Source: Rhizoclosmatium globosum (taxonomy: Eukaryota > Chytridiomycota > Chytridiomycetes > Chytridiales > Chytriomycetaceae). From it: 64,000 bases of DNA. The notes under the pieces were generated by a model. It worked only from the letters and a program-made list of their open reading frames with translations, searched no databases and was not told the DNA's origin. This document shows, piece after piece, positions 3,080 through 62,018 of the stretch (position 1 is its first letter; each line of letters begins with the position of its first letter). The position numbers were made by a program, and so were the translations under genes. The stretch is taken from positions 371,431 to 435,430 of the forward strand of contig MCGO01000035.1 in assembly GCA_002104985.1 (NCBI GenBank), given 5' to 3'.

Positions 3080-3856
3080 ATGCGACCTTTAATTGCAGTA
3101 ACGGCAACAAGAACTCTCCGAAGCAGCTTGAGGATCAGTAACAATGCTGCAAATGAAGTTGCAGCCATTACAAAGCCAAAGAAGAGGGCTCAATCAAAGA
3201 CTTCATCAAAGAAGTCCTCACCAAGTCCTCAATCTGCTCAGGTCGTTCCAATGAAAACTGCGACTGATTCAAATGGTATTACCCGCTGTTCCTGGTGCAC
3301 AAACGATCCAATCTATCAGTTCTATCACGACAACGAATGGGGAAACTCGCCAATCACAGACGACCGTCTTCTATTTGAACTTCTGTGTCTCGAAGGGGCT
3401 CAAGCTGGTCTCTCCTGGATAACTATCCTCAAACGAAGGCAAAACTACAAGGATGCTTTCGACGACTTTGATCCTTCCATTGTGGCAAAGTACACTGCTG
3501 ACAAAATCAATCAACTCATACAGAATGACGGCATCATTCGCAACAAACTAAAGATTCAGTCTGCCGTGACAAACGCGAACGCTTTTTTGAAGGTCCAGAA
3601 AGAGTTTGGGACATTCTCGGAATACTTGTGGGGGTTTGCTCCGGAAGGTGGTCCTACTGCTCATTTGAATGAAGGAAACAAGTGTCGTGCTGTGAGTCCG
3701 GAATCTGAAGCCATGAGTAAAGATTTGAAGAAGCGTGGGTTCATGTTTGTGGGTCCTACCATCTGTTATGCGTACATGCAATCTATTGGTATGGTGAATG
3801 ATCATCACGTTGATTGCTTCTTGTATCCCAACAAAGAAAAAAGTCAGAGTGACTGA
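3080..3856 (+). CDS. DNA-3-methyladenine glycosylase I (TagA family)
   Basis: Intact single-exon gene, 258 aa. The family removes 3-methyladenine from alkylated DNA as the first step of base excision repair. Residues from about 72 match the whole family domain: RCSWCTNDP at the start, YHDNEWG, LLFELLCLEGAQAGLSWITI with the catalytic-site Glu, a RNKLKIQS segment, and NDHHVDCF near the C-terminus. The first Cys, the His of YHDNEWG and the HH..C pair are the expected zinc ligands of bacterial Tag enzymes. The ~70-residue N-terminal extension is rich in Arg, Ser, Lys and Ala and could be an organelle-targeting or nuclear sequence, which is inference. The gene lies between a minus-strand membrane protein and a plus-strand permease; nothing suggests co-regulation. 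Confidence 0.93.
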   Translation: MRPLIAVTATRTLRSSLRISNNAANEVAAITKPKKRAQSKTSSKKSSPSPQSAQVVPMKTATDSNGITRCSWCTNDPIYQFYHDNEWGNSPITDDRLLFELLCLEGAQAGLSWITILKRRQNYKDAFDDFDPSIVAKYTADKINQLIQNDGIIRNKLKIQSAVTNANAFLKVQKEFGTFSEYLWGFAPEGGPTAHLNEGNKCRAVSPESEAMSKDLKKRGFMFVGPTICYAYMQSIGMVNDHHVDCFLYPNKEKSQSD

Positions 3857-7730: not shown

Positions 7731-10700
7731 TTAATAATTATCCATTTGGCTCGGCCGCCTATCCATAAATAATCGTGCTGTTTGCTCCATGCGGACTTTA
7801 GCCATTCGGGCTTCATAGATTTTATCTATTCGGAGTTTCATATCATCAAACTCGAGAAGAATCGCATTAAAATCTTTTGCTGAAAGTGTGTACATTTTGC
7901 AGACGGTTGCAGCAACTACCGACGCAGTTCGAGGAATATTCGCGATCAGAGCGACCTCTGAAATATCGTTTAACTTTGACGGATAATTAGTCTTACTTAA
8001 ACTTACCTCCAAAGAATCCACCATCTGAAAACGATGAAACTTGCTGGTTGTTTACCAATATATCAACTTTCCCTGTGAGTATAAAATACATTTCCGTAGC
8101 TTGCTCCCCCTGACTTATTATCACATCTCCGGGGATGAAATAAACAGGAACCAATGCAGTGGAAATTTTCCCAATATAAAGTGCGTCACGACCATCACCA
8201 CGCTCTCGCTTCAAGAATGGTACTTTTTCAATCAACTGCTTGCAGTTGATAGCGGCGAGTTCCTGGCATTTTTTATGAGTCGATTCAAGCCGAATTAACG
8301 CCAACTTACACGACGTAATGAATGATTCAAATCCGCCAACAGATTCATTTCTTCGAAGTATTTACCCTTGTACTTAAATTCATAGTAATTGAGTAATCTT
8401 CGCTTGGTATCGTTGTCAATATTTTTCCAAGTCAGATATTCAGTCAGTTCGTCGACTTTTTGCCGATAAAGGCTTCCAGATGCATCGTAACTGATTGCAG
8501 CACTTGAAATTAGTCCGACCAATGTTGCATACTAACAATTGTTAGAGCAGAAACTGCGAGAAGGGGAAAACCTTACCAATAGCGCTCCGATAACAATGAA
8601 AACCATTGTCGCCGCTTGTTCAAGCAGAGTTTCTGGCTTAAAAGTTAGCTGGAAAATATTTCCAATCGACTGAGTCAACATCCAAGTATAACGTTCTGAA
8701 ATCGGTGCAGCATTGATTCCTCCGGGATAAAATTGCCAATGTGAAAACTGCGAGTCCCACGTTTGAAAATTGTATATCTTTCCGAGATAATACAAAATGC
8801 ATGTTTGGAGATGTACAAAGTAGAGAACCGCTGCACCGACTGGAAGCATACGTGTTAAAATATTTCCGATACCAAGGATGGAATTTAGTTTCCGATTGAG
8901 GACTATAAGCATCGGGGCTCTTGCCAACATATGAGGGAAGTGTATCATGCGGATTAAATGAATCAAGGTGAATGGAAGGTTGTCTTGCCCAAGTGGAAGA
9001 AATATCGCAAACGGAATCAATGAGATTATATCAAGCAGTAAATATCGTTTCATGTATTCCCAAGCCCATATGTTGCACTGCGGACGCTTGACTTTGTTAC
9101 GAGTATCTGTCTTTTGTGGTGGTAATGGAGTTATGGCGCAAATGATTGTATCTAAACAGAAAACGCCAAAAATAATAAATTCTTGCGCCATAATGGTATC
9201 TACAGTGTCATTGTACGCGATTTGATAAGGAATCACTATCAATATTACCGCATAGAAACCTGGAAATGATAGTTAAACCAACAAAAGCACAACAGATAAA
9301 CTCACAAATCAAGAAGAAATTTAAAATAACGCAAAATAGGGACATTGGGTGGAATCCATCTGTCCATAAATTGTGTGGCCTGAAATCGGTTTGGTGGTAC
9401 AACTCCATTGAAATAAAACGACCATCGTCGCCAAACGCTGGACACAGAAATATCCAATGTAGCTTGTATTTTATCGTATTATAAGACTCTACAGTAGGTA
9501 ATTGTGGGGAAGGAGGCGATTGTGCTTCGAGTTTTTGATTCAATTGCTCAATATCAGGTAGAGCTGTGATAGCAAGCGAGGAAATAATCTCAAATCTACC
9601 AGGTGTCCTGTCCGATTGAAGCACAGTTTTTTTAACCTTGTTCCATTGTTGCCGAGCCTTTGCCTTTTTCTCTTCAGGTGTTGTCTGGAGTTCCGGAAAC
9701 GCTGCAGTAACAATGCTTGAGAATCCGGGATCTAATGCTTGAGATTGTCGTCTGATAGTTTCTGCACGAAGTTGTTCCCACTTTTTGCCAACTTGTAACT
9801 TTGGAACTTTTAGTTGGACCGCTAAGGAGTCACGGCGCTCGTCATCATATGGTTCCACTTTTCGACTCGCCGCCTTAAAGGTACCTAACCCAGCCTTCGA
9901 AGAACTTTCATATTGAGCATGCTTTTCTTCCGACCCATGTTGTTGAACGTCATTATTGGAATACATGGGCAAACTCTCTGTGCTCTTTGCGCCAACACTG
10001 AAAGCCTTGCTCAACCAAAGACCCAAGTTATTCGCTGATTTTTTTACAATCGATGGACGACGTTTTCTTTCATCAGTTACTGAAACTGTTGGAACTACAG
10101 ATGTGTCATTCGCACCTGGAAGCGTCGGATCACTGAAAACTGCAAGGTTTCTTCGTTCAATAGAACTTGGCTCTCGTTTAGACGCGAGAATATAATCCGT
10201 ACTATCCCATTTCAAACCCATCGTTAAATGCGAATCGGCTGTGCTCACAGTACTCTGAACCCGCTGTGTAAGTCCAATTGAAACCCCAGACGCGGTTGAA
10301 AGAGTATTTTTTGGGCCAGTTTGTGCGAGTGTCAATAAATCTGGGTGATATTGATACCGTGAATGGATGTTGGCTTCAGCGAAGCTAAAACGCCGCGGAG
10401 TCTTTTGTTTCTGACTTGAAATGTCTAATGAAGAGGGAATAACGCTGGGACTTCCGATCGTGGAAACTGCTCTTCCAGTTGGTATAGCAGAATGTGCTCT
10501 TTCTTTTTGAACAATTATCGTCTTATCATCCATATCAGGCTGCTTCTCTTTTCCATCGCTTTTTGATGTTGTTGAAGTAGGTGTATCGTTTGAAAGGGAA
10601 TCAAGTATGTGTGCGATGGTTGTGAGACCCATTTGCATCTGTTTCGACAGCTGGACTACATTTGCTTGTAGCTGATTCTGAATAGATATCAAAGTTTGCT

Positions 10701-10755
10701 GAAGCTCTAGCGCATCTGATAATAGTAGAGCGCGTTGAGCAGTGGGATTGTCCAT
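7731..10755 (-). CDS. Cyclic-nucleotide-gated channel (CNG/HCN-like), atypical pore
   Basis: Five exons on the minus strand with introns at 9260-9305, 8532-8576, 8263-8309 and 7958-8006, all GT-AG and frame-restoring; about 945 aa from the ATG at 10755. Order: long cytosolic N-terminus (~1-440, Ser/Thr-rich with a predicted coil near the start), six TM segments (~480-720), a C-linker (YLTWKNIDNDTKRRLLNYYE) and a cyclic-nucleotide-binding domain. The latter has FIPGDVIISQGE, a phosphate-binding cassette GEVALIANIPRTASV with its conserved Arg, and a final helix. S4 (IHLIRMIHFPHML) has few basic residues. The pore reads SIGNIFQLTFKPE, lacking the GYG of K+ channels and the GET of animal CNG channels. 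The likely role is a cAMP/cGMP-responsive cation channel, relevant to zoospore signalling; ion selectivity cannot be predicted. Confidence 0.88.
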
Positions 10756-11069
10756 TGAAAGAAGGAAGTGATTTACCAAAGACGACACGTTCAGGCGGAA
10801 GATTTACAGCCAACAACTCAATAACTAATTCCCGGAAGGATGATTTAAGGGTTCATGATGTGGTAGACACAAGTTTTTCTACGGCCTATATCACAACACT
10901 GGATCCACGGAGACTTTTGAATCAGCCTTAAGTAACTCACGGCAAGCTAGCAAGTAGGTAATCAAGTAATATAAAGCTCCAACTCACCCAGAAAAATACT
11001 CAAATTGTGAGACGCAATTTCTTGATCAACGCTGTCAAAAAAAAATTTGCAGGTTTCCACCTTCCAATT
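10756..11069. other. Divergent intergenic region
   Basis: About 310 bases between the start of the minus-strand channel gene and the first gene of the plus-strand DDFFDD array. It should hold both promoters. No repeat, RNA gene or recognised operator was seen. Confidence 0.45.
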
Positions 11070-11981
11070 ATGTCTCTTTCGTGGATGATGGCCTGCGTGG
11101 GACCAGACGAAACTGAAGCTACTTGTGATCAAGAAGTTTGTGTCGACAGTCTCCCCTGCAAGAATGCAACGACAGTGTGTCGAGCAGTTAATACACCACG
11201 TGGTGGCTGTGTTGACCCACACCACTTTGACGTTTCCGTCTCTACAACGACGTCTACTCTTGAAAACACTGTCAATATTCATATGCCTCCAATTGAGAAG
11301 CATCCGGGTCCTCCTCTCGTCGCTTCACAGGGAGCTTTGGGGTTAGACACAGATGGTGTGGACTCGAATCCTGTTGTCACTTCCGTGGTTTCTTCCGTGT
11401 TGGCGAATGCAGCTGGTTCTGCAGCCGTCGTTCCTGCGAATACTTCAATTTTCTCGTCGGTCAATGTCCCTGTGCTTCAAGGGATTGGAGGGTTTTTTGG
11501 GTTGGCTTTTGTTGTTATTGGCATTATCGCCTTCAAGTACCGTCGCCACTTCAGATCTTGCGAGAAAGTGTCAGATATTTCTGCTATTGTCGTTGTTGAT
11601 GAGTCCAAGGGCAAGGAGGACCCAACAATTTCGAAAGGGTTGCCTCATGTGACCATTCCGGGTCTGCCGCCACCACAATATTCAAAACGCAACCGCGGAT
11701 TCCGCATTGATGACTTTTTTGATGACTCGTCTAGTCGAACTGGGCAGGACAGTGCAAGTGTTTTGGAAACTCCGAATTATCAAACGTACCCACCATTAGA
11801 AGCTCTGGGATCCCCACGAAAAGTCGCTAAAGGATTGATTGAATTAGATGGTGCGATCAAGAAATTGAATAATCCGATTGATGACCCAGGAATGTTAACG
11901 GATCATTGGGAGGAAGAATCGGTTAATACTACCTCGAAAAGTGTTGGCGAGGCAACTATCAAACTGTACAATCTTAGATGA
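11070..11981 (+). CDS. Family A single-pass protein 1 (Cys-rich ectodomain, DDFFDD tail)
   Basis: Intact single exon, 303 aa. The N-terminus is a compact six-Cys module starting CVGPDETEATC, shared with the genes at 12.0, 13.1, 14.1 and 15.3 kb. A low-complexity stalk and one TM segment (GIGGFFGLAFVVIGIIAF) with KYRRHFR follow. The cytoplasmic tail has all family boxes in order: RIDDFFDDSSSR, a SASVLETPNYQTYPPLE segment, the amphipathic helix KGLIELDGAIKKLN, WEEESVNT and the C-terminal KLYNLR. No cleavable signal peptide; with the Cys module starting at residue ~9, an N-out type III orientation is inferred. First gene of a tandem same-strand array, so it probably arose by local duplication. 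Molecular function unknown. Confidence 0.82.
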   Translation: MSLSWMMACVGPDETEATCDQEVCVDSLPCKNATTVCRAVNTPRGGCVDPHHFDVSVSTTTSTLENTVNIHMPPIEKHPGPPLVASQGALGLDTDGVDSNPVVTSVVSSVLANAAGSAAVVPANTSIFSSVNVPVLQGIGGFFGLAFVVIGIIAFKYRRHFRSCEKVSDISAIVVVDESKGKEDPTISKGLPHVTIPGLPPPQYSKRNRGFRIDDFFDDSSSRTGQDSASVLETPNYQTYPPLEALGSPRKVAKGLIELDGAIKKLNNPIDDPGMLTDHWEEESVNTTSKSVGEATIKLYNLR

Positions 11982-12044
11982 GTGCTTCTTCCTTCTTCTA
12001 TCTCATTTCGTGATAAGCAATAAAAGCAATACCAAAGAATCAAC

Positions 12045-12898
12045 ATGCCTGGCAAGCATCCACCATTTCCGCCTCCACAGGTCTTTGCATGCATAGGAGT
12101 TGGTGAAACGGCTGCGACTTGTGCGAAGGAAGCATGCTGGAACGGACTTGGTTGCCAGGATCCCAACACATCCTGCCAATATGTAACTGCCCTTTCCCGC
12201 CATGCGACGACCACCGCTTTGAGCCTGTTGAGGATCACGATGCAGACGTTGACGACGATGATACGGTCCAAGTGAAGGCTGTGCCGGTAACGCCAGTGGT
12301 TCAAACGTCTGCTGTTCAACCAATTATCCCACAATTGATCCCACAAACTACAGCGTTAATTGGTCCACCACAAACAGCACAAACAGGCCCCATCTTCTCC
12401 ACGGGGAATTATGTGATTGGATCTTTCGGGGCACTTACACTGATTGCTGTCCTTGTTGCTGCATTTATCGCAATTCAACACAAGCGTCGTCAATGTCGTG
12501 CGGAATCAGAAACATCCTCAGAGAAACCCCTGGACATCGAATCCTATGCAAAAGATGCGTCGACGGATTTGGAGCAGATGCCTCAACCTCGTGGAAGCCT
12601 GAGATTTGGTGGATTTGTTGATGATTTCTTTGATGATGTCTCGAGTACCAGAATATCCAGCGCCAACGGGAGAGACAGTGTTGCTATATCGGATTCCCCT
12701 TGTAGCAATGGATATCCGGCTTTGGTACCTTTGGACGGGTCACAGCAACGAGTTGTGTGTGGAATTTTAGAGTTGGAGGCTGCGATAAAGAGACTGAATG
12801 ATAACACGACACCGATTACAGCTGGCTGGGATGAGGAGTCTGTGAATACTGGAGTCAGTGTGGGGACAGAGACTGTGAACCTGTATAACCTGCGATAG
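12045..12898 (+). CDS. Family A single-pass protein 2 (one frameshift)
   Basis: Starts at ATG 12045 only 63 nt after the previous gene. The N-terminus is Pro-rich followed by the family Cys module (ACIGVGETAATC, then CQDPNTSCQYV). At about 12185-12195 the coding content moves from one frame to another, as if a base were missing; the rest (CPFPPCDDH, a poly-Asp stretch, TM segment VIGSFGALTLIAVLVAAFIA and tail) is intact to 12898. Tail boxes: GGFVDDFFDDVSS, GILELEAAIKRLN, WDEESVNT and LYNLR at the C-terminus. Either a recent pseudogene or a one-base assembly error; the intact tail favours the latter. Same inferred topology as its neighbours. Confidence 0.75.
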
Positions 12899-13079
12899 AC
12901 TTGATTGATTTCTGATTATGTTGATTACGTGGGACATGCAACCAATACATGCTTGAATAACAAAGTATTTCTATGGGTCAAAGGATTAATTGCTGTAGTC
13001 ATCGTTAGTAAAAAATCAAGAGAAATTCGATTTGCTCAAATCAAAGACACCAAACAAGCCCAGAGGCAGTTGACCAATT

Positions 13080-13967
13080 ATGTCTTTCCCAGGACCACCA
13101 GCAGTTGGGAATCAACCACCGCCACCTCCAGTTTGGGCATGTATGATAGAACCCAGTGCCTATGCCAAATGCACATGGCAAGCATGCGATTTGACACCAT
13201 GCTCAGACTCATCAGCAACCTGTTTTCTCCTTCCACCACCTAAGCCACCCTGTGCAAACAATAACTTCTTGCCACCAATTGGAAGTAACTGGAATGGAAC
13301 ACCTTCGTCCTGGCAATTCCTCCCGTCCGTTCAACCTGGCACGACAGTGTACCCTAAACAGCTTCAACCATCTCCAAGTGCACCCTCGACCCTGTCAACT
13401 ACGATCACAAACGTTGCAACTACTACCTCCCAAGTAACTACGCCAGCAGATACTAACAGCTCCATGGCTCCGGGAGTCGTCTTTGGCCTGGGAGTCACTG
13501 GTGGCGTTGTTGCTATCACCATCATTGGACTCGCCTTTTATCTGACGAAATACAGGAAAGGCACACTGAATCAAGTAGACGTATCTGCTATAGGCTCTAC
13601 CGAGGTTGAGGCAGATAAAGATGCGATACCCAAAGAAACACACGCCTTCCATCACCCTTTGCCGAAATCGGGGGGACAAAGACCCGGATTCAATATCGAC
13701 TACTTTTTCGATGACGATGGGTCCAGTCGGATTGGGGAAAGTGTTCTTGAGACGCCCAATTTCCAGACATATCCTGTGCTTGAAAACTTTGGGGCTCCGA
13801 AACCGAGGAAGGTTGCGACGGGGATTTTGGAGCTTGAAGGGGCGCTGCAGAAATTGAATCATGGCGCTACAACAGTTGATGTTGGTGCACCCATGGAGGA
13901 ATTGAAGGCGTGGGAGGAGGAGTCTGTGAGAACTAAGCTAACGGTGGTGAGAGATGATGAACGGTAG
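13080..13967 (+). CDS. Family A single-pass protein 3
   Basis: Intact single exon, 295 aa. The N-terminus MSFPGPPAVGN leads into a PPPPP run, then a Cys module (WACMIEPSAYAKCTWQAC, later CSDSSATC). A Ser/Thr/Pro stalk precedes one TM segment (VVFGLGVTGGVVAITIIGL) and a KYRKG stop-transfer. The tail has the family boxes in slightly divergent form: NIDYFFDDDGSSR, SVLETPNFQTYPVLE, GILELEGALQKLN, and WEEESVRT near the end; the C-terminal LYNLR is replaced by VRDDER. Part of the tandem array; function unknown. Confidence 0.82.
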   Translation: MSFPGPPAVGNQPPPPPVWACMIEPSAYAKCTWQACDLTPCSDSSATCFLLPPPKPPCANNNFLPPIGSNWNGTPSSWQFLPSVQPGTTVYPKQLQPSPSAPSTLSTTITNVATTTSQVTTPADTNSSMAPGVVFGLGVTGGVVAITIIGLAFYLTKYRKGTLNQVDVSAIGSTEVEADKDAIPKETHAFHHPLPKSGGQRPGFNIDYFFDDDGSSRIGESVLETPNFQTYPVLENFGAPKPRKVATGILELEGALQKLNHGATTVDVGAPMEELKAWEEESVRTKLTVVRDDER

Positions 13968-14081
13968 TATAGATGGCTTTAGTTTTGTTTATAGAGTCTT
14001 AAATGTTCAGTTAAAGTTGCCTTGCTTCATGAGTGTGAGACACACAAGCCCTACTTTTTCCTCAAATCAGCAACACGCGAT

Positions 14082-14990
14082 ATGACTGCACCTTTTCCTG
14101 TACCTCCTCCAGTGGGTGCACCGCCTCCTCCTCCCATATGGATCTGTGGCAGTCCAGGACAACGAATTGCGTATTGCGGCCAGATAGGATGCTCTGAATC
14201 TGTGAAATGCACTGATCCAACTCTGACCTGCCAATATGTACCACCTCCCCTTCAGAACCCAACACCCTGCACCGGAGCTCCCTTTGGCTATCCAAACTAC
14301 GAATATGCATTGATTGCAGCTTCAGTACCGTCTCCGTTGCCGTCTCCAGTGGGTACCCGAAATGACACTGGCGTGGTTATGATGCACAGTCCCGTCCCAA
14401 CAAATGCATCAAATGGAACCTCAGCAGCCGGCCCATCGCTGTCGTCGCCACAAGCAAACAATATGTCAACAGGCAGCGTATTTGCACTAGGCCTTGTCGG
14501 TGGAATCGCATCGATTGTGATCGTGTTTGCAGCCGTATTTGCAATCAAGTATCGAAATGGCAGTCATCGAGTCTTTGCAAAAGGAAGCGATGAAGAATGC
14601 GTTGTGGGTCGTCAAGAGACAAAGGTGTCAAAAGTGGAGTCCACAGATCCATCTCCAACTGTTCAAATTAGGGGGCCGCCGATTCGCGCGGTTGTTCGGT
14701 ATGATGTCGATGACTTTTTTGATGATTCTTCTAGCCGGTATGGTGAAAGTGTCATGGATGTTCCATATGGCCATACACACACTGCTCCTGCTTTGAACAA
14801 TATGGAGACGCCAAGAGGGGTTGCTAGTGGGATTTTAGAATTAGAAGGTGTGTTGCGGAGGTTGCACCAGCAACATTCAGGTGATGCTGGCGAATTATCG
14901 GCTCGACAATTGGATGGGTGGGATGAAGAATCTGTGAATACTGGAATGAGCGTTGGCGATGCTACTCTGAAGCGATACGACCTTCGTTAG
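14082..14990 (+). CDS. Family A single-pass protein 4
   Basis: Intact single exon, 302 aa from the ATG at 14082 (MTAPFPVPPP). A Pro-rich N-terminus is followed by a Cys module (WICGSPGQRIAYCGQIGC, then CTDPTLTCQYV), a Ser/Pro/Asn stalk, and one TM segment (VFALGLVGGIASIVIVFAAV) with KYRNG. The tail has VDDFFDDSSSRYGESVMDVP, GILELEGVLRRL, WDEESVNTGMSVGDATL and the C-terminal RYDLR, so every family box is present. The shared CQYV in the ectodomain and DATL-x-RYDLR / EAT-IKLYNLR at the C-terminus show that both halves of the protein are under constraint. Function unknown. Confidence 0.83.
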   Translation: MTAPFPVPPPVGAPPPPPIWICGSPGQRIAYCGQIGCSESVKCTDPTLTCQYVPPPLQNPTPCTGAPFGYPNYEYALIAASVPSPLPSPVGTRNDTGVVMMHSPVPTNASNGTSAAGPSLSSPQANNMSTGSVFALGLVGGIASIVIVFAAVFAIKYRNGSHRVFAKGSDEECVVGRQETKVSKVESTDPSPTVQIRGPPIRAVVRYDVDDFFDDSSSRYGESVMDVPYGHTHTAPALNNMETPRGVASGILELEGVLRRLHQQHSGDAGELSARQLDGWDEESVNTGMSVGDATLKRYDLR

Positions 14991-15300
14991 ACTGTGCTGG
15001 TATTTGTGTGGGGTTTCTTGGTTTAGATTATTTGGAATAGAGAAGAAAATAGATTTCTGATACCATATCGTTTTTTCCATCTCCATTTTCGATTTGGAGA
15101 AATGTGTCTTAATCCTGAAAAATTGCTGACCAATCCTTCACGCTTCCATGTTGAGCCGGAAATGAGAGCCTCAACACTGGGGTTCTGTGGTTGAGATGTT
15201 AGAAACGGTGTGATTACATAAGTTGATAGATTTAATTGAAGGAAGTGTGAAGAAGCCCAACTGAACAGGCTTTGTTTTTTCTTCAAAAAATCGAGAGCAA

Positions 15301-16266
15301 ATGAGCCAAGAGCAGCATCTTATTAAAGCCTGCCTTGGACCAGGCGAGACGGTTGCCACTTGCCAGAATCAACTGTGTTTACGTCAACCATGTGCCGACT
15401 TGAACACCACTTGCCAATATGTGCAGGCCCCATCTCCATGGTGTGATAACTGGAAGCACAACGACACCGATGATCACGACAATGATGGTCATGGCGGTGG
15501 AGGCGGCCAAGACGGCAGGCATGATGGTGCATTCAAACTAAGACAGGGAGGCACTGTTGCCGTTCCTTCATCCACGCAAGAAGTCCCAGTGCCCCCAAGT
15601 TCAACCATCATTGCCACCACCACCATCACCAACATCACCAACCCAGACACGCCAAGCACAGCTTCTCCACCACGCCAAGTACCTGCTCCAGCCCAATCGA
15701 ATCCATCCATCTTCTCCAGTGTCAATGCAACAGCAGCCTTCTCAGTAGTCGGCACCGTCCTCGTGATCGCAGTGATGGGCATCGCACTCGTCGCCGTCCG
15801 CCGCAGATTCACCTCAAAACCAACTACCTCATCACCCACAACCACATCACCAACCGAAAAGAGCCTTGCCCAAGAATCAGAGTTCCACACAACAACCGAC
15901 CCGCAACAACTGTTCTACACCCACCAGAGACAACCCCGAATCGGCGGATTCAACATCGACGACTTCTTCGATGACGCGTCGAGTCCGGGTGGTGGGCGGG
16001 ATAGTGCTAGTGTTCTTGCCACACCGCATTATATGGTTGGGATGCCGCCGTTGGAAAGGCTTGAGGCGCCTAGGTTGGGTGTGCATGGGATTTTGGAGTT
16101 GGAAGCTGCATTGGAGAAGCTGAATCAGGCGGATGATGTTGGTGGATTTATGGAGGGGGAGGAGTGGGAGGAGGAGTCTGTGAATACTGGGATGGGTAGT
16201 GCGGATAGTAGGCGTAGTAGTAGTAGGGGCTTGATTAGACGTGGGAGTTTCTTTCAACGAGAATAG
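15301..16266 (+). CDS. Family A single-pass protein 5
   Basis: Intact single exon, 321 aa. The Cys module (ACLGPGETVATC, CADLNTTCQYV) is followed by a His/Asp/Gly-rich acidic stretch that could bind metal (inference), a Thr/Pro stalk, TM segment SVVGTVLVIAVMGIALVAV and RRRF. Tail: GGFNIDDFFDDASS, SASVLATPHYMVGMPPLE, GILELEAALEKLN, WEEESVNTGM, then a distinct Arg/Ser-rich C-terminus (RRSSSRGLIRRGS) in place of LYNLR, which looks like a basophilic kinase target. The ectodomain resembles members 1 and 2 most closely. Tandem array member, function unknown. Confidence 0.82.
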   Translation: MSQEQHLIKACLGPGETVATCQNQLCLRQPCADLNTTCQYVQAPSPWCDNWKHNDTDDHDNDGHGGGGGQDGRHDGAFKLRQGGTVAVPSSTQEVPVPPSSTIIATTTITNITNPDTPSTASPPRQVPAPAQSNPSIFSSVNATAAFSVVGTVLVIAVMGIALVAVRRRFTSKPTTSSPTTTSPTEKSLAQESEFHTTTDPQQLFYTHQRQPRIGGFNIDDFFDDASSPGGGRDSASVLATPHYMVGMPPLERLEAPRLGVHGILELEAALEKLNQADDVGGFMEGEEWEEESVNTGMGSADSRRSSSRGLIRRGSFFQRE

Positions 16267-16521
16267 GCGGAGAGAATAGAGTACTTATTGGTGATTTTGC
16301 AAAAAAAAACAGCAGCCTCAATCTCTTTCGCTCGTTTGGGTCCACTGTCGATCAAGATTCAACAGGCAAGGTACCCATTGATCATTGTGTTGTAGGTAGT
16401 CAAGAGGTAGCTGATGACGTGATACTGCAGGAACAGGGACGCATAGATTTACAAATAGATAGATAGAAGAGACTACAAGCTACTGCCACCCTCGATTGCC
16501 GTATACCCACATAGTCCCCCA

Positions 16522-17282
16522 ATGTCTACAACCGTCACAATCATTGTCGTACTAGCAATCCTCGCACTAGTCATCAGCATACTCGTCTACATATACCGTT
16601 GCCGTCGCCGAAACCAATTATCCCACGTTCTCCCAACAACAACCACTACACCCATCTGCCCCCTCCAACAACAAACCCGCCAAATAACACCACCACTCCC
16701 ATCCTTCCAATGCCCATCCCAAAAACAACAACACCCTCCTCACAAATCAACCCATTATGCAACATCCCCACCAAACCCGAATTCATCAACACACCCACAC
16801 ACAGATCAACACCCACAAACACAACAACATCCCAATCCCTCACAAAACCGGCACGTATACCCTCCCGCACACTCCTCCAACACGCTGGCTTCACAGACCC
16901 TACACCCGCACCACCGCCAATCGGCCTCCGTTCCCACGCGACGACTCGAATCGGGAAACGCGGGTTCTTGGACGACTTTTTCGACGACGATGAGAACGGG
17001 CATGATGATTCCGCCGGGGGTGTTGGAGGCGGTGGTGGTGGGGGGCTGGAAAGTGAGCAGACGACGTTTGTGAGTGAACATAGTGTGCGTGCTTTTTCGG
17101 GGTGGTTTGGGAGTGTTTCTGTTAGAGGGGGTTGAGTGGACGGGGGAGTCGCGGGAGTGGGAGTGAGGTTGGTGGTGGTGGTGGTGGGTTTGGAGGGAAT
17201 GGAGGGAATGTGGGGAATAATGGGAGTGGGACGAGGTTGGGGATGCCGTTGCCGAAGAGTGGGAGTGATGGGTATTTAGGGT
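16522..17282 (+). CDS. Family A single-pass protein 6 (no ectodomain, two frameshifts)
   Basis: Starts MSTTVTIIVVLAILALVIS, so the membrane segment is at the N-terminus and there is no Cys module. RCRRR follows the TM. Coding then shifts frame at about 16600-16660 into a Pro/Thr/Gln-rich region ending RGFLDDFFDDDENGHDDS, the family box, and a Gly-rich stretch. At the G-run near 17130 the frame shifts again; downstream a Gly/Ser/Asn-rich C-terminus ending KSGSDGYLG runs to a stop at about 17282. GILELE and EEESVNT boxes were not found. Either a decaying copy or one with indels in homopolymers. Confidence 0.55.
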
Positions 17283-17736
17283 GATATTTGGGGTGTAGAG
17301 AAGGAGGGGAGGGTGGGGACTTTGGGAGGGGGTGGTGATGTAAAGGTGGTTGTGGTAAGATCTATAGAAAGTGGGAATTGAGTGGTGGAAATTCGTTTAT
17401 TTTTTGGAAATAAATGTCTATGTGTACACAGTACCAAAGATATGTTGCAAGATAGGAGTGTGGCTGAGATGGCAGATGATGGATGGTACAATCATGTGGC
17501 TAATAACTCATTGAAGAGTTTTGTCTGTGTATAACGGTAGGAGATCTCTACACAAGTACACCTCAAAGCATCTCTCGGAATTCTTTGAAGTGGGATATGA
17601 CGTCACTGGTGCGTGTGTTTGTGTGTGCGCAAAAGCAGGGGAACTTGAGGCTTGGTGGATCTCATCAAAAAAAGTTGTTTGAGCACGCGGCCTTCGCACA
17701 AAACCCTCGCTCAACCAAAAGATCCCCTTATCGTTT
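17283..17736. other. Intergenic, no gene seen
   Basis: About 450 bases between two members of the tandem array. A G-rich stretch lies at the left and a GTGTGTGTT-type low-complexity patch near 17615. No credible coding or RNA gene was seen on either strand. Confidence 0.4.
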
Positions 17737-18630
17737 ATGGCTGCTTTGAGGGGTTCCGCCACCACTATCACTGGCAGTGCTGGTATACTTGCAGGTGCAG
17801 GGGGAGAGGGCTGTGTAGGAGCATGTAATCGATTGGGGCGCCTGGCAAAGTGGATATCTTCAACTTCAAGGAGCCTTATCAAGTCAAGTGAGGCTGTGCA
17901 GCCACTTCTACTGAGTGCTAGAGACACCATGAACCAACCAAGCAATGCAGTGCTTGTGATTACACTGTGTTCAATTGCAGGTGTAGTCTGTGTGGTTGTA
18001 GTGTTCCTAGTGGTTGTCCAATTCAAACTCCGACACAAGCGCCAACAAAGTCTCACTGAACAAGGCATCGAATCAAATGCATCAAACAACAATCGAAAGT
18101 CAATGTCACCGCCATTTGTGTACGATGTGGACGACTCTCTTCCGGCCACAAGGAAGAACACTTCCGAATCTTCACACAAGAGTTCTCCAAGTGACGCTAC
18201 TAGACCCAATACGCTTCTTTCGCCGCGTTTGTCGAATGCACTTCGGATTGCGGCAAGTCAAAGCATTCCTCGGTTCTTTTACAAGGACGATTTCTTTGAC
18301 GATGAAGTGTCGACAAGGAATCCAAGCTCGAATAATTTGAATTTGAGTGGCAGTGGAGTGGGAGGAGGAGGAGGAGGAGTAGGAGGGATTGTTATTGAAC
18401 GGCCAGGTGATGTCAAGCGACGGGATACAAAACGGAGTAGTAGTACAGTGATTAGTGTGGATGTAGTGAATGTGATGGATTTGAGTGCAGGACACGATGA
18501 CCATGAATTCCCTTTAAATGCAAAAGAGGCGGTAGAGTTGCGGCGGTTACAAGAGGTAGTACGGCTGCAGAGTGCCCGAGCTGAGGAAGACGATGGATAC
18601 GAAGAGGAGAGTGTGCGATCGCAAGTGTAG
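17737..18630 (+). CDS. Family A single-pass protein 7 (divergent)
   Basis: Intact ORF of 297 aa from the ATG at 17737; an in-frame ATG at 17929 directly before the TM is an alternative. The 64-residue N-terminal part has GCVGAC but not the full Cys module. One TM segment (VLVITLCSIAGVVCVVVVFL) is followed by KLRHKRQQ. The tail carries FYKDDFFDDEVSTR and ends in YEEESVRSQV, the family boxes in divergent form. The region between has a Gly run (GGGGGG), a basic Ser patch and a helix rich in Glu/Arg (AVELRRLQEVVRLQ) where other members have GILELE. Oldest or fastest diverging of the array together with the next gene. Confidence 0.72.
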   Translation: MAALRGSATTITGSAGILAGAGGEGCVGACNRLGRLAKWISSTSRSLIKSSEAVQPLLLSARDTMNQPSNAVLVITLCSIAGVVCVVVVFLVVVQFKLRHKRQQSLTEQGIESNASNNNRKSMSPPFVYDVDDSLPATRKNTSESSHKSSPSDATRPNTLLSPRLSNALRIAASQSIPRFFYKDDFFDDEVSTRNPSSNNLNLSGSGVGGGGGGVGGIVIERPGDVKRRDTKRSSSTVISVDVVNVMDLSAGHDDHEFPLNAKEAVELRRLQEVVRLQSARAEEDDGYEEESVRSQV

Positions 18631-18676
18631 AATATCACTATTTTTATTTTGTTTGTTTGAATTAAACAAACAACAA

Positions 18677-19759
18677 ATGGCACCTTCCTTATTCTGCCAC
18701 GCCCCAACAACGCCCGTGACAGTGATCGCCGAATGCGGGGCTCTCGAGTGTGGCGTGTCAGCCAAGGCGGGCAGTCGGTGTGGGTTCGCGGGTCTTGGGT
18801 GGACGTGTGTTGCGCAGGCGCCTGCGTCGAACTGCACACCGGCCGTTGTTCAAGTTGTTGTTGCTGCTGCTTTTGATCCGCCAAAGAAGACATCGTTTAC
18901 TCTGTCGTTGTACCCTTCGCTGTACCCATCGCAACAGATCCCAACAAACTCCCAACAAGACTCTCTCGCAAACACTCTCAAACAACCGGCGGTTATCGCT
19001 GTCATTTCAATTGCCGCAGTCGCAATCCTGGCTATCGTCGGACTTCTCAACTACACTTCCCGTCAAAGAACATCATCACATTCAAAATCACTCAACAAGG
19101 ACGACATCAACTGTCCTCCACCACCTCCCCTCTTTGATATCCTTCCTACCCCCGCAGACCCAAACCACTTCCTCAACAGACCTCCTTCAATGCGTTCCCT
19201 CCCGGACCCAAACCGTATCCCCGCTTTCTACTACAAGGACGACTTTTATGACTTGGACCTTCTTTCTCTCGATTCTATGGAGTCGAAGAGATCTTTTAGT
19301 ACTGCTCACACTCAACATCGGTTCATGCTTGACCGTGCTGCTCAACAACTCCATGACCCTACTACTACTGCTACTAGCACATCTCCTATCCGTCTTCGAC
19401 CTCCTACCGATTCTCTTGACCTTGTCGTTAACATGCCGCGTGCTCTTGCTAGACGTGTGAAACTTGAACGCAGTCGTGATGTTCTGATGGATCCCTCCGC
19501 TTTGATCTTGATGGACTCTGGTGGTGCCCGTGTCCGTCTTGGAAATCATCATGAGGATGGAGGTCTTGATGATGATGTTGTTGTTGTCATGCGGGAGGAA
19601 GAGAGACAGGTTGCGATCAAGGAAAATGAGAGGGAGATTAAGGAATTGCATTTGTTGATTATGAGGCATCAGGGGCGGTTGATGGGTGGCGTTGTTGAGG
19701 TAAGGAGGAATGAGTGTGAAAGCGATAGAGGTATGAGTGTGAAAGCGAGAGAGGCGTGA
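18677..19759 (+). CDS. Family A-related single-pass protein 8
   Basis: Intact single exon, 360 aa from the ATG at 18677. The N-terminus has a Cys-rich module (ECGALECGVSAKAGSRCGF and a later NC) similar in spacing to chytrid surface repeats. One TM segment (VIAVISIAAVAILAIVGLL) is followed by SRQR. The tail has a PPPPP run, then PAFYYKDDFYDLDLL, a variant of the DDFFDD box that most resembles member 7. A long Glu/Arg coiled segment (REEERQVAIKENEREIKEL) follows. EEESVNT is absent. Ends with a short Arg/Glu tail just upstream of a small tandem repeat. Function unknown. Confidence 0.75.
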   Translation: MAPSLFCHAPTTPVTVIAECGALECGVSAKAGSRCGFAGLGWTCVAQAPASNCTPAVVQVVVAAAFDPPKKTSFTLSLYPSLYPSQQIPTNSQQDSLANTLKQPAVIAVISIAAVAILAIVGLLNYTSRQRTSSHSKSLNKDDINCPPPPPLFDILPTPADPNHFLNRPPSMRSLPDPNRIPAFYYKDDFYDLDLLSLDSMESKRSFSTAHTQHRFMLDRAAQQLHDPTTTATSTSPIRLRPPTDSLDLVVNMPRALARRVKLERSRDVLMDPSALILMDSGGARVRLGNHHEDGGLDDDVVVVMREEERQVAIKENEREIKELHLLIMRHQGRLMGGVVEVRRNECESDRGMSVKAREA

Positions 19760-46882: not shown

Positions 46883-47809
46883 TCAAGAAGCAACGTGTTT
46901 CATGGCAGCAACAATTTGCTTTCGTTGTGTGAGCCTTTCTGCAGTGTCAGAGTTGATTTTGTTCCAGTACACTCCATGACCCTTTGCAGTAAACCTATAC
47001 ACCAACAGGAATTCACATCCAACAGGAACTTTTTGGGTTGTTTCAACAGAAACGGTTTGAGATTTCCTATTAACAACGAACCGGCAATTCACAAGGCTGC
47101 TGTTGGGAGCATTGTTGATGTAGCGTAAAATTCCCGATTCTTCGCCAAAACCATCAATGAAGGTATCTTTGGATAATTCCATTAGATACGCCATTCGGGC
47201 TTGTTGCAGTGGGTCGGTTGATGCTTCAATTGCATCCTTCTCTGCACGGGAAATAAGCCATTTTCCATACGTCACTGGGAGACGTTCTTTTGCTGCGAAG
47301 TCCTTTGTTGCAACCAGTCCAAAACCACCACCTGGAATCAAAGATCCGACAACACTGAGTCCAAGTTGTTGAGACGAACACCTCGAACATATTGGATGCG
47401 TCAACACACACAGGTCCTTGCATCCAATGGTCGAACATTTGCCGCGGAAAGTGTACATTAAAGGGTTTCCTGAATGAACCCATGAGTCTAAACGCAGCAA
47501 CTTTGATACGTCTGGTTCTCCCGCGAAAGCAGCAATGACTTTGATGGACTGCTCCATATAGTACTTGCGATTGTAGCATTCTCGGCATCTTCCAGTGAGG
47601 TAAGCTACTTTCACACATGGAACGGGAACCATCGTGGAGCAATAAGCGACTGGTTTGGGGTTTGCTCGTTTTCCCAACTTCTTTGACCATGCAGATTTGA
47701 TGCGAACCCAATCTCGGGCTTTGACTCCTACAGGTTTGTGATCTGCGTTGATGTCGGCAATGTCGACGTTGATGCGCTGTTTGGTTCCAAAGACGAATGT
47801 TTCGTCCAT
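46883..47809 (-). CDS. SET-domain protein (putative lysine methyltransferase)
   Basis: Intact single exon, 308 aa, ATG 47809. The N-terminal half has a Cys-rich zinc-binding-like region (GRCRECYNRKYY, later CSTIGCKDLC and CSRCS). The SET domain occupies ~165-290: GGGFGLVATKDFAAKERLPV (SET-N), LRYINNAPNSSLVNCRF (the R-x-I-N-x-x...N-C pseudoknot strand) and VPVGCEFLLVYRF (SET-C, E-L-x-x-x-Y-like). It lacks a long host-type regulatory architecture, as in viral SET proteins such as those of chloroviruses. The 85-bp element sits 13 nt upstream of the start codon in the same orientation, so it includes or abuts the promoter/5' UTR. Substrate unknown (histone methylation is inferred). Confidence 0.78.
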   Translation of the reverse strand: MDETFVFGTKQRINVDIADINADHKPVGVKARDWVRIKSAWSKKLGKRANPKPVAYCSTMVPVPCVKVAYLTGRCRECYNRKYYMEQSIKVIAAFAGEPDVSKLLRLDSWVHSGNPLMYTFRGKCSTIGCKDLCVLTHPICSRCSSQQLGLSVVGSLIPGGGFGLVATKDFAAKERLPVTYGKWLISRAEKDAIEASTDPLQQARMAYLMELSKDTFIDGFGEESGILRYINNAPNSSLVNCRFVVNRKSQTVSVETTQKVPVGCEFLLVYRFTAKGHGVYWNKINSDTAERLTQRKQIVAAMKHVAS

Positions 47810-60729: not shown

Positions 60730-62018
60730 TTGTCAGTAGACTATGTTGTTTGGAATGGCCAAAATGTTGACTTGCTCGTTGAAACATGTTTGAAGGCCAT
60801 CACCAAGTTTGAGTCTCATGAGATTGCTTCAAGACGAAAAGAAGATAACTGGAAGCAAGAATTTGGAGTCAACTCATGGAGCTCTGACAGTTTTGCGGTA
60901 TCAAGCCCTCTAAACAGCAAAGAAATCGAATTGTTGTCAGAGTGCATCCCCCATAATAAGTATTGGACGGAGCTTCAATTAAGTAAGTTTTGTTCAAAAG
61001 TGCCTATGTTCAGTAATACTTGAAATCACAAGAATTCAATCACGATGGGTTGATCATGAATCTTTTCATGAATCTTGGTGAAAATATGGCTCTCTGTGAG
61101 AGCTTGGTATCATTGGATCTTGGAGGCCAAAATTTGAGTGATGACGTTATTTCAAACTTGGCTATTGGTCTCAGTCATCGACGTTCTCGGTCTCTGCGGA
61201 AGATTAATTTGTGCAAAAATGACATCACCAATGAAGGAGTCAAGGTCCTATTTGAGGTGCTTCAAGTCATCCCTGTTGAGAACCTTAATTTGAGCTTCAA
61301 CAACTTTGACGATATTGGCTCGACCTGGATTTCTGCATCTCTCGAACACACTTCTTTAACAACTCTGAATATTTCAAACAACCAGTTTGTTTTCATCAAT
61401 ACAGAATCAATTATGGATTCAAAGGTTACAACATTGTATGTCGGATACACAGGTTGTTTGAAGGGTGACAAATACATGGAATCTTTGACTGCAGGAAAAT
61501 TGAAGTCGCTGTCAGTCGAGACATGCAATGTTTCTGAGCTTGGTATTCATCATCTCGAGACAAACTCTGTCTTACAAGAACTCGACTTGAGCGAAAACAC
61601 TCTGCTTCAAAGTCACAGTACTATGGCATGCTTGAGCAAATCATTGAGTGTGGGGGCGACATCATTGTGTGTCTTGCGTTTGAATGGCATTCCTTTGAAC
61701 GGAACTGGAGTTTTTGCAATGCTTGTTGCTGGAATCTTGGGTGGTGCCAGACTTAAAGAATTGTACATCAGAACCTGTTCTCTGAATTCTGATGTCTTCA
61801 ATGTTGCAGGGCCTCTTATATTTCAAATCAGCACATTGGATGTCTCTGGGAACCCGCTTGGACGTTGTGGTGTGGAACAACTTCACGGCGTGCTTGTTCA
61901 AGCACAAAAATACTTTGAACTCTCTGCATCAAACTGTGGAGTCCAAAATGAGGCTGTGTGCAATTTGTTTGCAAATATACCTACAGTCAGCTTGTGGGGT
62001 ATGGATCTGCAATTTTGA
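60730..62018 (+). CDS. LRR (RNI-like) protein, 5' end uncertain
   Basis: Exon 1 to 60982, intron 60983-61032 (GTAAGT...CACAAG), exon 2 to 62018. About 410 aa. Exon 2 holds ribonuclease-inhibitor-type leucine-rich repeats: LVSLDLGGQNLSDDVISNLA, LRKINLCKNDITNEGVKVL, VENLNLSFNNFDDIG, LTTLNISNNQF, LQELDLSENTL, LCVLRLNGIPLNGTG and ISTLDVSGNPLGRCG. No signal peptide or TM, no NACHT or F-box seen. No in-frame ATG is found in exon 1 after the mosaic junction, so the true start was lost or lies in an upstream exon. Protein-protein interaction role, otherwise unknown. Confidence 0.7.

Follow-up and report, generated by a model that had tools for sequence, protein, structure and literature searches.

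A tandem array of eight putative signal-less membrane proteins with a shared tail code in the chytrid Rhizoclosmatium globosum

Introduction

In our judgment, surface sensing in chytrids is poorly charted, and a row of eight small membrane protein genes in Rhizoclosmatium globosum raises the question of whether differing outer domains could feed one cytoplasmic pathway through a common tail. The window analyzed here is a stretch of 64,000 nucleotides on contig C279 of the assembly (genome of 56.9 Mb, 420 contigs), and an earlier note, made from its letters alone, had described the array as eight same-strand genes for receptor-like proteins, a description borne out on the plus strand from position 11070, the ATG of gene 1, to 19759, where the stop codon of gene 8 ends. 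The reading that we favor, with a probability of roughly 0.5, is that of a tandem Rhizoclosmatium-specific family of signal-less (type III) plasma-membrane sensors with a constant docking tail.

Results

The tail of genes 1-5 has about 95 residues, is mostly disordered and carries boxes of the types DDFFDD, GILELE and W(D/E)EESV(N/R)T in the fixed order that had been claimed; of the ungapped columns, 6 of 12 are invariant in box 1, 4 of 14 in box 2 and 6 of 9 in box 3 (genes 1 and 2 being represented in the column counts by the proteins P0002 and P0003). Gene 3 reads DYFFDD in box 1 (Y at position 1) and WEEESVRT in box 3. The linkers had been called diverged, which is true of the juxtamembrane linker (0 of 33 columns invariant) but not of the stretch between boxes 1 and 2, which is likewise conserved (5 of 28); the tail is therefore nearer to one module of about 95 residues than to three islands in a free linker. 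Conserved prolines preceded by T or S occur between boxes 1 and 2 in four of the five genes, and may place this stretch under phosphorylation control. The (L/R)Y(N/D)LR terminus was found in three genes (1, 2 and 4), the number given earlier. As for genes 6-8, said to keep degenerate versions of box 1, this applies to gene 8 only (DDFYDL), since genes 6 and 7 have the exact DDFFDD. Because gene 7 combines it with YEEESVRS, a form of box 3, and gene 8 has six Cys (no box 3 was seen in it), the family is somewhat wider than had been supposed.

The boxes are also the most constrained part of the proteins. Between the haplotypes represented by C279 and C302 (gap-free codons of genes 1-5), they differ by six synonymous and no nonsynonymous changes, a ratio of nonsynonymous to synonymous rates (dN/dS) of 0 over 393 nonsynonymous and 99 synonymous sites. 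The corresponding synonymous and nonsynonymous counts are 25 and 16 for the linkers (dN/dS 0.19), 3 and 1 for the transmembrane (TM) segments (0.13), and 34.7 and 60.3 for the ectodomains (0.56, vs 0.15 for the whole tail). On rounded counts, Fisher tests gave p 0.0013 for tails vs ectodomains and p 0.0035 for boxes vs ectodomains, and in three orthologue pairs with other Rhizoclosmatium only 1 of 98 box residues differs. Strong purifying selection on the tail boxes is thus supported both within and between species, and fits the earlier proposal that the tail docks conserved partners.

The ectodomain of gene 3, on the other side of the membrane, changes fast. Its residues 1-97 carry 30 nonsynonymous and 12 synonymous changes between haplotypes, with all six Cys kept (dN 0.151 and dS 0.209, vs 0.020 and 0.064 in the remainder; another alignment gave dN 0.138 and dS 0.147 for the whole ectodomain). 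Compared with the window allele, the R. hyalinum orthologue has replacements at 28 of 93 residues within this part and at 8 of 198 beyond it; compared with the C302 allele, the figures are 34 of 94 and 7 of 197, and some of its residues agree with one haplotype, others with the second. The gene 3 upstream region and ectodomain form a peak of haplotype divergence (Table 1) of up to about 13% per 250 bases (median 2.8%), with alleles 86% identical over a 500-bp piece; it ranks second in the 17.4 kb haplotype alignment, behind the stalk repeat of gene 5. The latter peak (22 nonsynonymous and 10 synonymous changes in 29 codons of residues 54-84, vs two and two in residues 1-53) was rejected as a sign of diversifying selection, given that it sits in a low-complexity repeat.

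A single strongly hydrophobic segment is present in each of the eight proteins (best mean over 19 residues, 2.26-3.29), with a net charge of +2 to +4 over the 15 residues after it and of 0 or -1 before it; gene 2 was read from protein P0003 of Rhizoclosmatium sp. JEL0117, and gene 6 from C302, where only three residues precede the TM segment. From the chosen ATGs, no N-terminal segment resembling a signal peptide was seen by hydropathy, without the use of a signal-peptide program, and by this measure the proteins are not classical type I surface receptors, which have a cleavable signal peptide. The same-strand gaps at 11982-12044 (63 bases, genes 1 and 2) and 18631-18676 (46 bases, genes 7 and 8) are very short. 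A hidden exon encoding a signal peptide for gene 2 or gene 8 would have little space there, as would separate promoters, so that a shared transcript is possible across each of these gaps; an upstream exon may exist in the genes with longer gaps. Six Cys are invariant across genes 1-5, in which Ser, Thr and Pro make up a fraction of 0.28-0.44 of the outer part, as in an S/T/P-rich stalk. The description of a short, often Cys-rich N-terminus followed by a TM segment and a tail suits genes 1-5 and 8, with their six Cys, and less well gene 7, with only two before the TM segment, and gene 6, which as read has almost no ectodomain.

Table 1. Features of the array and the associated peak of divergence between haplotypes (positions in the window)
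Feature	Position	Strand	Description
Gene 1	11070..11981	+	303 residues; six-Cys N-terminus, stalk, TM, boxes 1-3, C-terminus KLYNLR
Gene 2	12045..12898	+	Six-Cys N-terminus, TM, boxes 1-3, C-terminus NLYNLR; window copy frame-shifted
Gene 3	13080..13967	+	295 residues; six-Cys N-terminus, TM, boxes 1-3; fast-evolving ectodomain
Gene 4	14082..14990	+	302 residues; six-Cys N-terminus, TM, boxes 1-3, C-terminus KRYDLR
Gene 5	15301..16266	+	321 residues; six-Cys N-terminus, D/H/G-rich stalk, TM, boxes 1-3
Gene 6	16522..17284	+	N-terminal TM; tail with exact DDFFDD only; end set by comparison with C302
Gene 7	17737..18630	+	297 residues; short N-terminus with two Cys, TM, exact DDFFDD, C-terminal YEEESVRS (box 3)
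Gene 8	18677..19759	+	360 residues; six Cys before TM, degenerate box 1 (KDDFYDL)
Haplotype-divergence peak	12899..13400	.	Gene 3 upstream region and ectodomain

Genes 1-5 are clear paralogues. They are 28-37% identical to gene 2, with DxFFDD, GxxEL, WxEESVxT and the six Cys in common, and a query with gene 5 retrieved gene 1 at an E value of 8e-28. The codon pattern for DDFFDD has 19 sites in the genome, of which 16 lie in the three copies of the array (one site for the reversed-pattern control), and that for W(D/E)EESV has 16, all but one in these copies (none for the control); together with the gene 5 match, this concentration argues that the array is not a product of chance. Genes 6-8 are tied to genes 1-5 by short motif matches only, since hhalign aligned gene 6 by box 1 (E 7e-5, probability 63%), gene 7 by box 3 (E 1e-4, 57%) and gene 8 by box 1 (E 2e-3, 15%). 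When the genome was searched at the protein level with genes 5, 7 and 8 as well as the gene 5 Cys domain, and part of the weak matches was read, no convincing member appeared off the array, which on these sequence comparisons, and at the sensitivity used, is the single genomic locus of the family. The DDFFDD sites on C44 and C224 were discarded because the surrounding open reading frames (ORFs) look unrelated; the site on C223 shares its 18-mer with C44. The W(D/E)EESV site on C50 lies within a low-complexity ORF, and the weak matches of gene 5 (C181:36970 and C290) and of gene 7 (C20) look unrelated.

That the family might have no homologues outside the locus is answered by three proteins from two other Rhizoclosmatium, all annotated at source as 'hypothetical protein' only. 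HDU79_005366 and HDU79_005367 of strain JEL0117 are close orthologues of genes 2 and 1, and their consecutive numbers make it likely that this neighborhood has been kept; HDU99_000448 of R. hyalinum is a close orthologue of gene 3. No homologue was found outside the genus by protein searches that required common 5-residue words, one of which scored only the 7995 top word-sharing candidates. One word-based search missed the known paralogues, genes 3-5, so that with searches limited in this way absence beyond Rhizoclosmatium is not demonstrated, and the family is possibly restricted to the genus.

In agreement with the earlier note, which knew of no such motif set, no Pfam family reached the cut-off in seven array ORFs (gene 6 apart) or in P0002 and P0003; sub-threshold rows appeared for genes 3, 5 and 7, the best being Protocadherin (E 0.0098) over the gene 7 TM region. 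With homologues present in other Rhizoclosmatium and no known domain at the cut-off in these scanned members, neither outcome that the earlier note had named as refuting it came about. Six N-terminal pieces (genes 1-5 and 8), searched against Pfam at E values up to 10, gave a single sub-threshold row, HJURP_C (E 0.17). The Cys spacing of the N-terminal domain resembles, in our view, that of hevein-like chitin-binding domains (CBM18), but the corresponding profile, Chitin_bind_1, did not match any of these pieces. A receptor enzyme (kinase, cyclase or phosphatase) was likewise set aside, with no Pfam family at the cut-off in the members scanned and a gene 5 tail mostly disordered in the model. 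A search of PDB sequences with query A3 returned weak matches in three rows, one to LYVE1 (0.042) that spans the stalk and TM segment and two to PUT3 (1.1 and 1.3), all taken as composition and chance.

AlphaFold, given gene 5 with six family sequences, produced a confident N-terminal Cys domain (blocks with a confidence score, pLDDT, of 75-93; mean of 82 when modeled alone), a TM helix at 144-171 (76-79) and, at box 2, a short helix of low confidence (265-275, about 52-54), most of the rest being below 50. Fold searches (Foldseek), including those of solved structures with the gene 5 Cys domain, gave no significant match, which is not proof of a new fold. Among the literature matches listed, only 'gilele' was hit of the three motif strings, the other two giving zero, and no paper describing the family appeared.

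Contigs C302 and C60 carry copies 99% identical to the first 1.4 kb of the array. Over 17.4 kb, C302 has 582 mismatches to the window (95.5% identity including gaps), and genes 3 and 5 show in-frame indels besides, a pattern as would be expected of a second haplotype. One-base indels are abundant on C60, which looks unpolished. Gene 2 has an open reading frame in C302 and in P0003 (284 residues each), and gene 6, frame-shifted in the window, is open for 258 residues in C302. Genes 7 and 8 were detected solely on C279, as the C302 match stops past window position 17392 and C60 ends about 250 bases beyond. Past that position, between genes 6 and 7, C302 has some 716 bases of unrelated sequence (L047:1-716) with an open frame in which no Pfam family reached the cut-off; our guess is that it is perhaps a mobile-element insertion on that haplotype.

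Upstream of the array, the neighboring gene at 9208-10788 (minus strand) has no Pfam match, and the haplotypes differ in it by up to 11% near 9.7-9.9 kb. The window also contains a methyladenine glycosylase gene at 3080-3856 (plus strand; Pfam Adenine_glyco, E 6e-76), a SET-domain protein gene at 46883-47809 (minus strand; Pfam E 1e-6) and a leucine-rich-repeat protein gene at 61020-62018 (plus strand; Pfam LRR_8, E 9e-8).

Discussion

As candidate type III sensors, the array proteins would insert with the N-terminus outside and without a cleaved signal peptide. Outside the cell, a small six-Cys domain of the disulfide type would stand on an S/T/P-rich and probably O-glycosylated stalk, while inside, the disordered tail would present three short docking motifs and an amphipathic helix. 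Contact with a ligand or a surface would gather the proteins, the shared tail would recruit one common set of cytoplasmic partners, and the differing outer domains would thereby feed one pathway; such a sensor role is plausible.

Such a receptor-like build is known in kind, and the tail code has no match in the libraries searched. Yeast proteins of the Fus1 type are signal-less type III proteins with the N-terminus outside, a short glycosylated outer part and a long tail with docking sites, and are thus like the array in the proposed build and docking tail, the likeness being one of layout; Fus1 is not known to have a Cys domain, and no SH3 domain was found in the array. Wall stress sensors of the Wsc and Mid2 type, with a Cys-rich outer domain, an S/T-rich stalk, one TM segment and short conserved tail motifs, have the same layout as genes 1-5, but they possess a signal peptide and a known domain such as WSC, neither seen in the array by hydropathy or at the Pfam cut-off.

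Several observations weigh against a family of surface sensors. A further stretch of moderate hydrophobicity is present in gene 1 (mean of 1.59 at residue 103) and, in genes 1, 4 and 8, the frame continues open for 30-40 codons before the ATG chosen, so that alternative starts or an upstream exon may exist; gene 6, as read, has nearly no ectodomain; and neither Pfam nor the PDB-sequence and fold searches recognized a ligand-binding or signaling domain. The earlier statement that the ectodomains vary stands for gene 3, within and between species, but in genes 1, 2 and 4 the two haplotypes have nearly the same ectodomain (dN 0.007-0.010) and the gene 5 peak is the repeat mentioned above. Gene 2 has more replacement changes in its tail linker (six) than in its ectodomain (two), and gene 1 differs from its JEL0117 orthologue alike in ectodomain (4 of 132 residues) and linker (5 of 115). 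Most of the contrast comes from gene 3: once it is removed, tails and ectodomains no longer differ significantly (p 0.12). No region with synonymous changes has a dN/dS above 1. The high dS of gene 3 indicates that its alleles are old or came from elsewhere, and since the upstream neighbor reaches a local dS of 0.274 at 9.6-10.1 kb (dN/dS 0.17), strong divergence does not by itself set the array apart.

It is conceivable, though unlikely, that the proteins are instead surface adhesins or anchors to wall or substrate, which grip chitin, wall or other cells through the Cys domain and the glycosylated stalk and connect by their tail to the cortical cytoskeleton or the endocytic machinery, no signal being started. 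The short Cys domain on an S/T/P-rich outer part would suit this role, as would the chitin-feeding habit of R. globosum (PMC12115818, PMC8778642). However, none of the six N-terminal pieces matched a chitin- or sugar-binding profile, and the strongest constraint falls on the tail boxes, suggesting more than passive anchoring.

Cargo or trafficking receptors of internal membranes, with a luminal Cys domain and acidic-aromatic boxes that act as sorting signals for coat adaptors, strike us as a rather improbable alternative. Short motifs of that kind in a disordered tail, a single TM segment and the lack of a visible signal peptide all speak in its favor, but a fast-evolving luminal domain, as gene 3 would then have, is less expected.

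There is a slim chance that balancing selection keeps gene 3 polymorphic as a receptor for self/non-self or mate recognition and that its neighbors serve as constant co-receptors; the array would then be a polymorphic recognition locus of a zoosporic fungus, in which a variable signal-less ectodomain is carried on a constant docking tail. The rank of its divergence peak, the 30 nonsynonymous and 12 synonymous changes within a retained six-Cys frame and the R. hyalinum residues that match partly one haplotype and partly the other are in line with it. Two haplotypes and one orthologue are, however, too few to show balancing selection, gene 3 has a dN/dS of 0.72-0.93 rather than above 1, and the upstream neighbor has an even higher local dS.

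Docking of VAP by box 1 as an FFAT motif is most improbable and is disfavored: although DDFFDD resembles the FFAT core, with its FF in an acidic tract and suitable positions 2-4 (F/Y at 2, F-like at 3, D/E/S/T at 4) in every gene (DDFFDD in genes 1, 2, 4, 5, 6 and 7, DYFFDD in gene 3, DDFYDL in gene 8), and the genome encodes MSP-domain proteins (six matches above the cut-off, haplotype copies counted), genes 1-7 have D and gene 8 has L at position 5, unlike the A, C, S or T of the published FFAT-like search pattern, for which the accessible part of the source reports that a change of S5 to E5 abolished targeting to the endoplasmic reticulum, D itself not being covered there (PMC3261905).

Taken as a family of signal-less sensors, the array would offer a compact, perhaps genus-restricted set of testable candidate receptors with one conserved tail code, and that tail would be a defined bait for their common partner. 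If gene 3 turned out to be under balancing selection, zoosporic fungi would in addition have here a rare candidate for a recognition locus.

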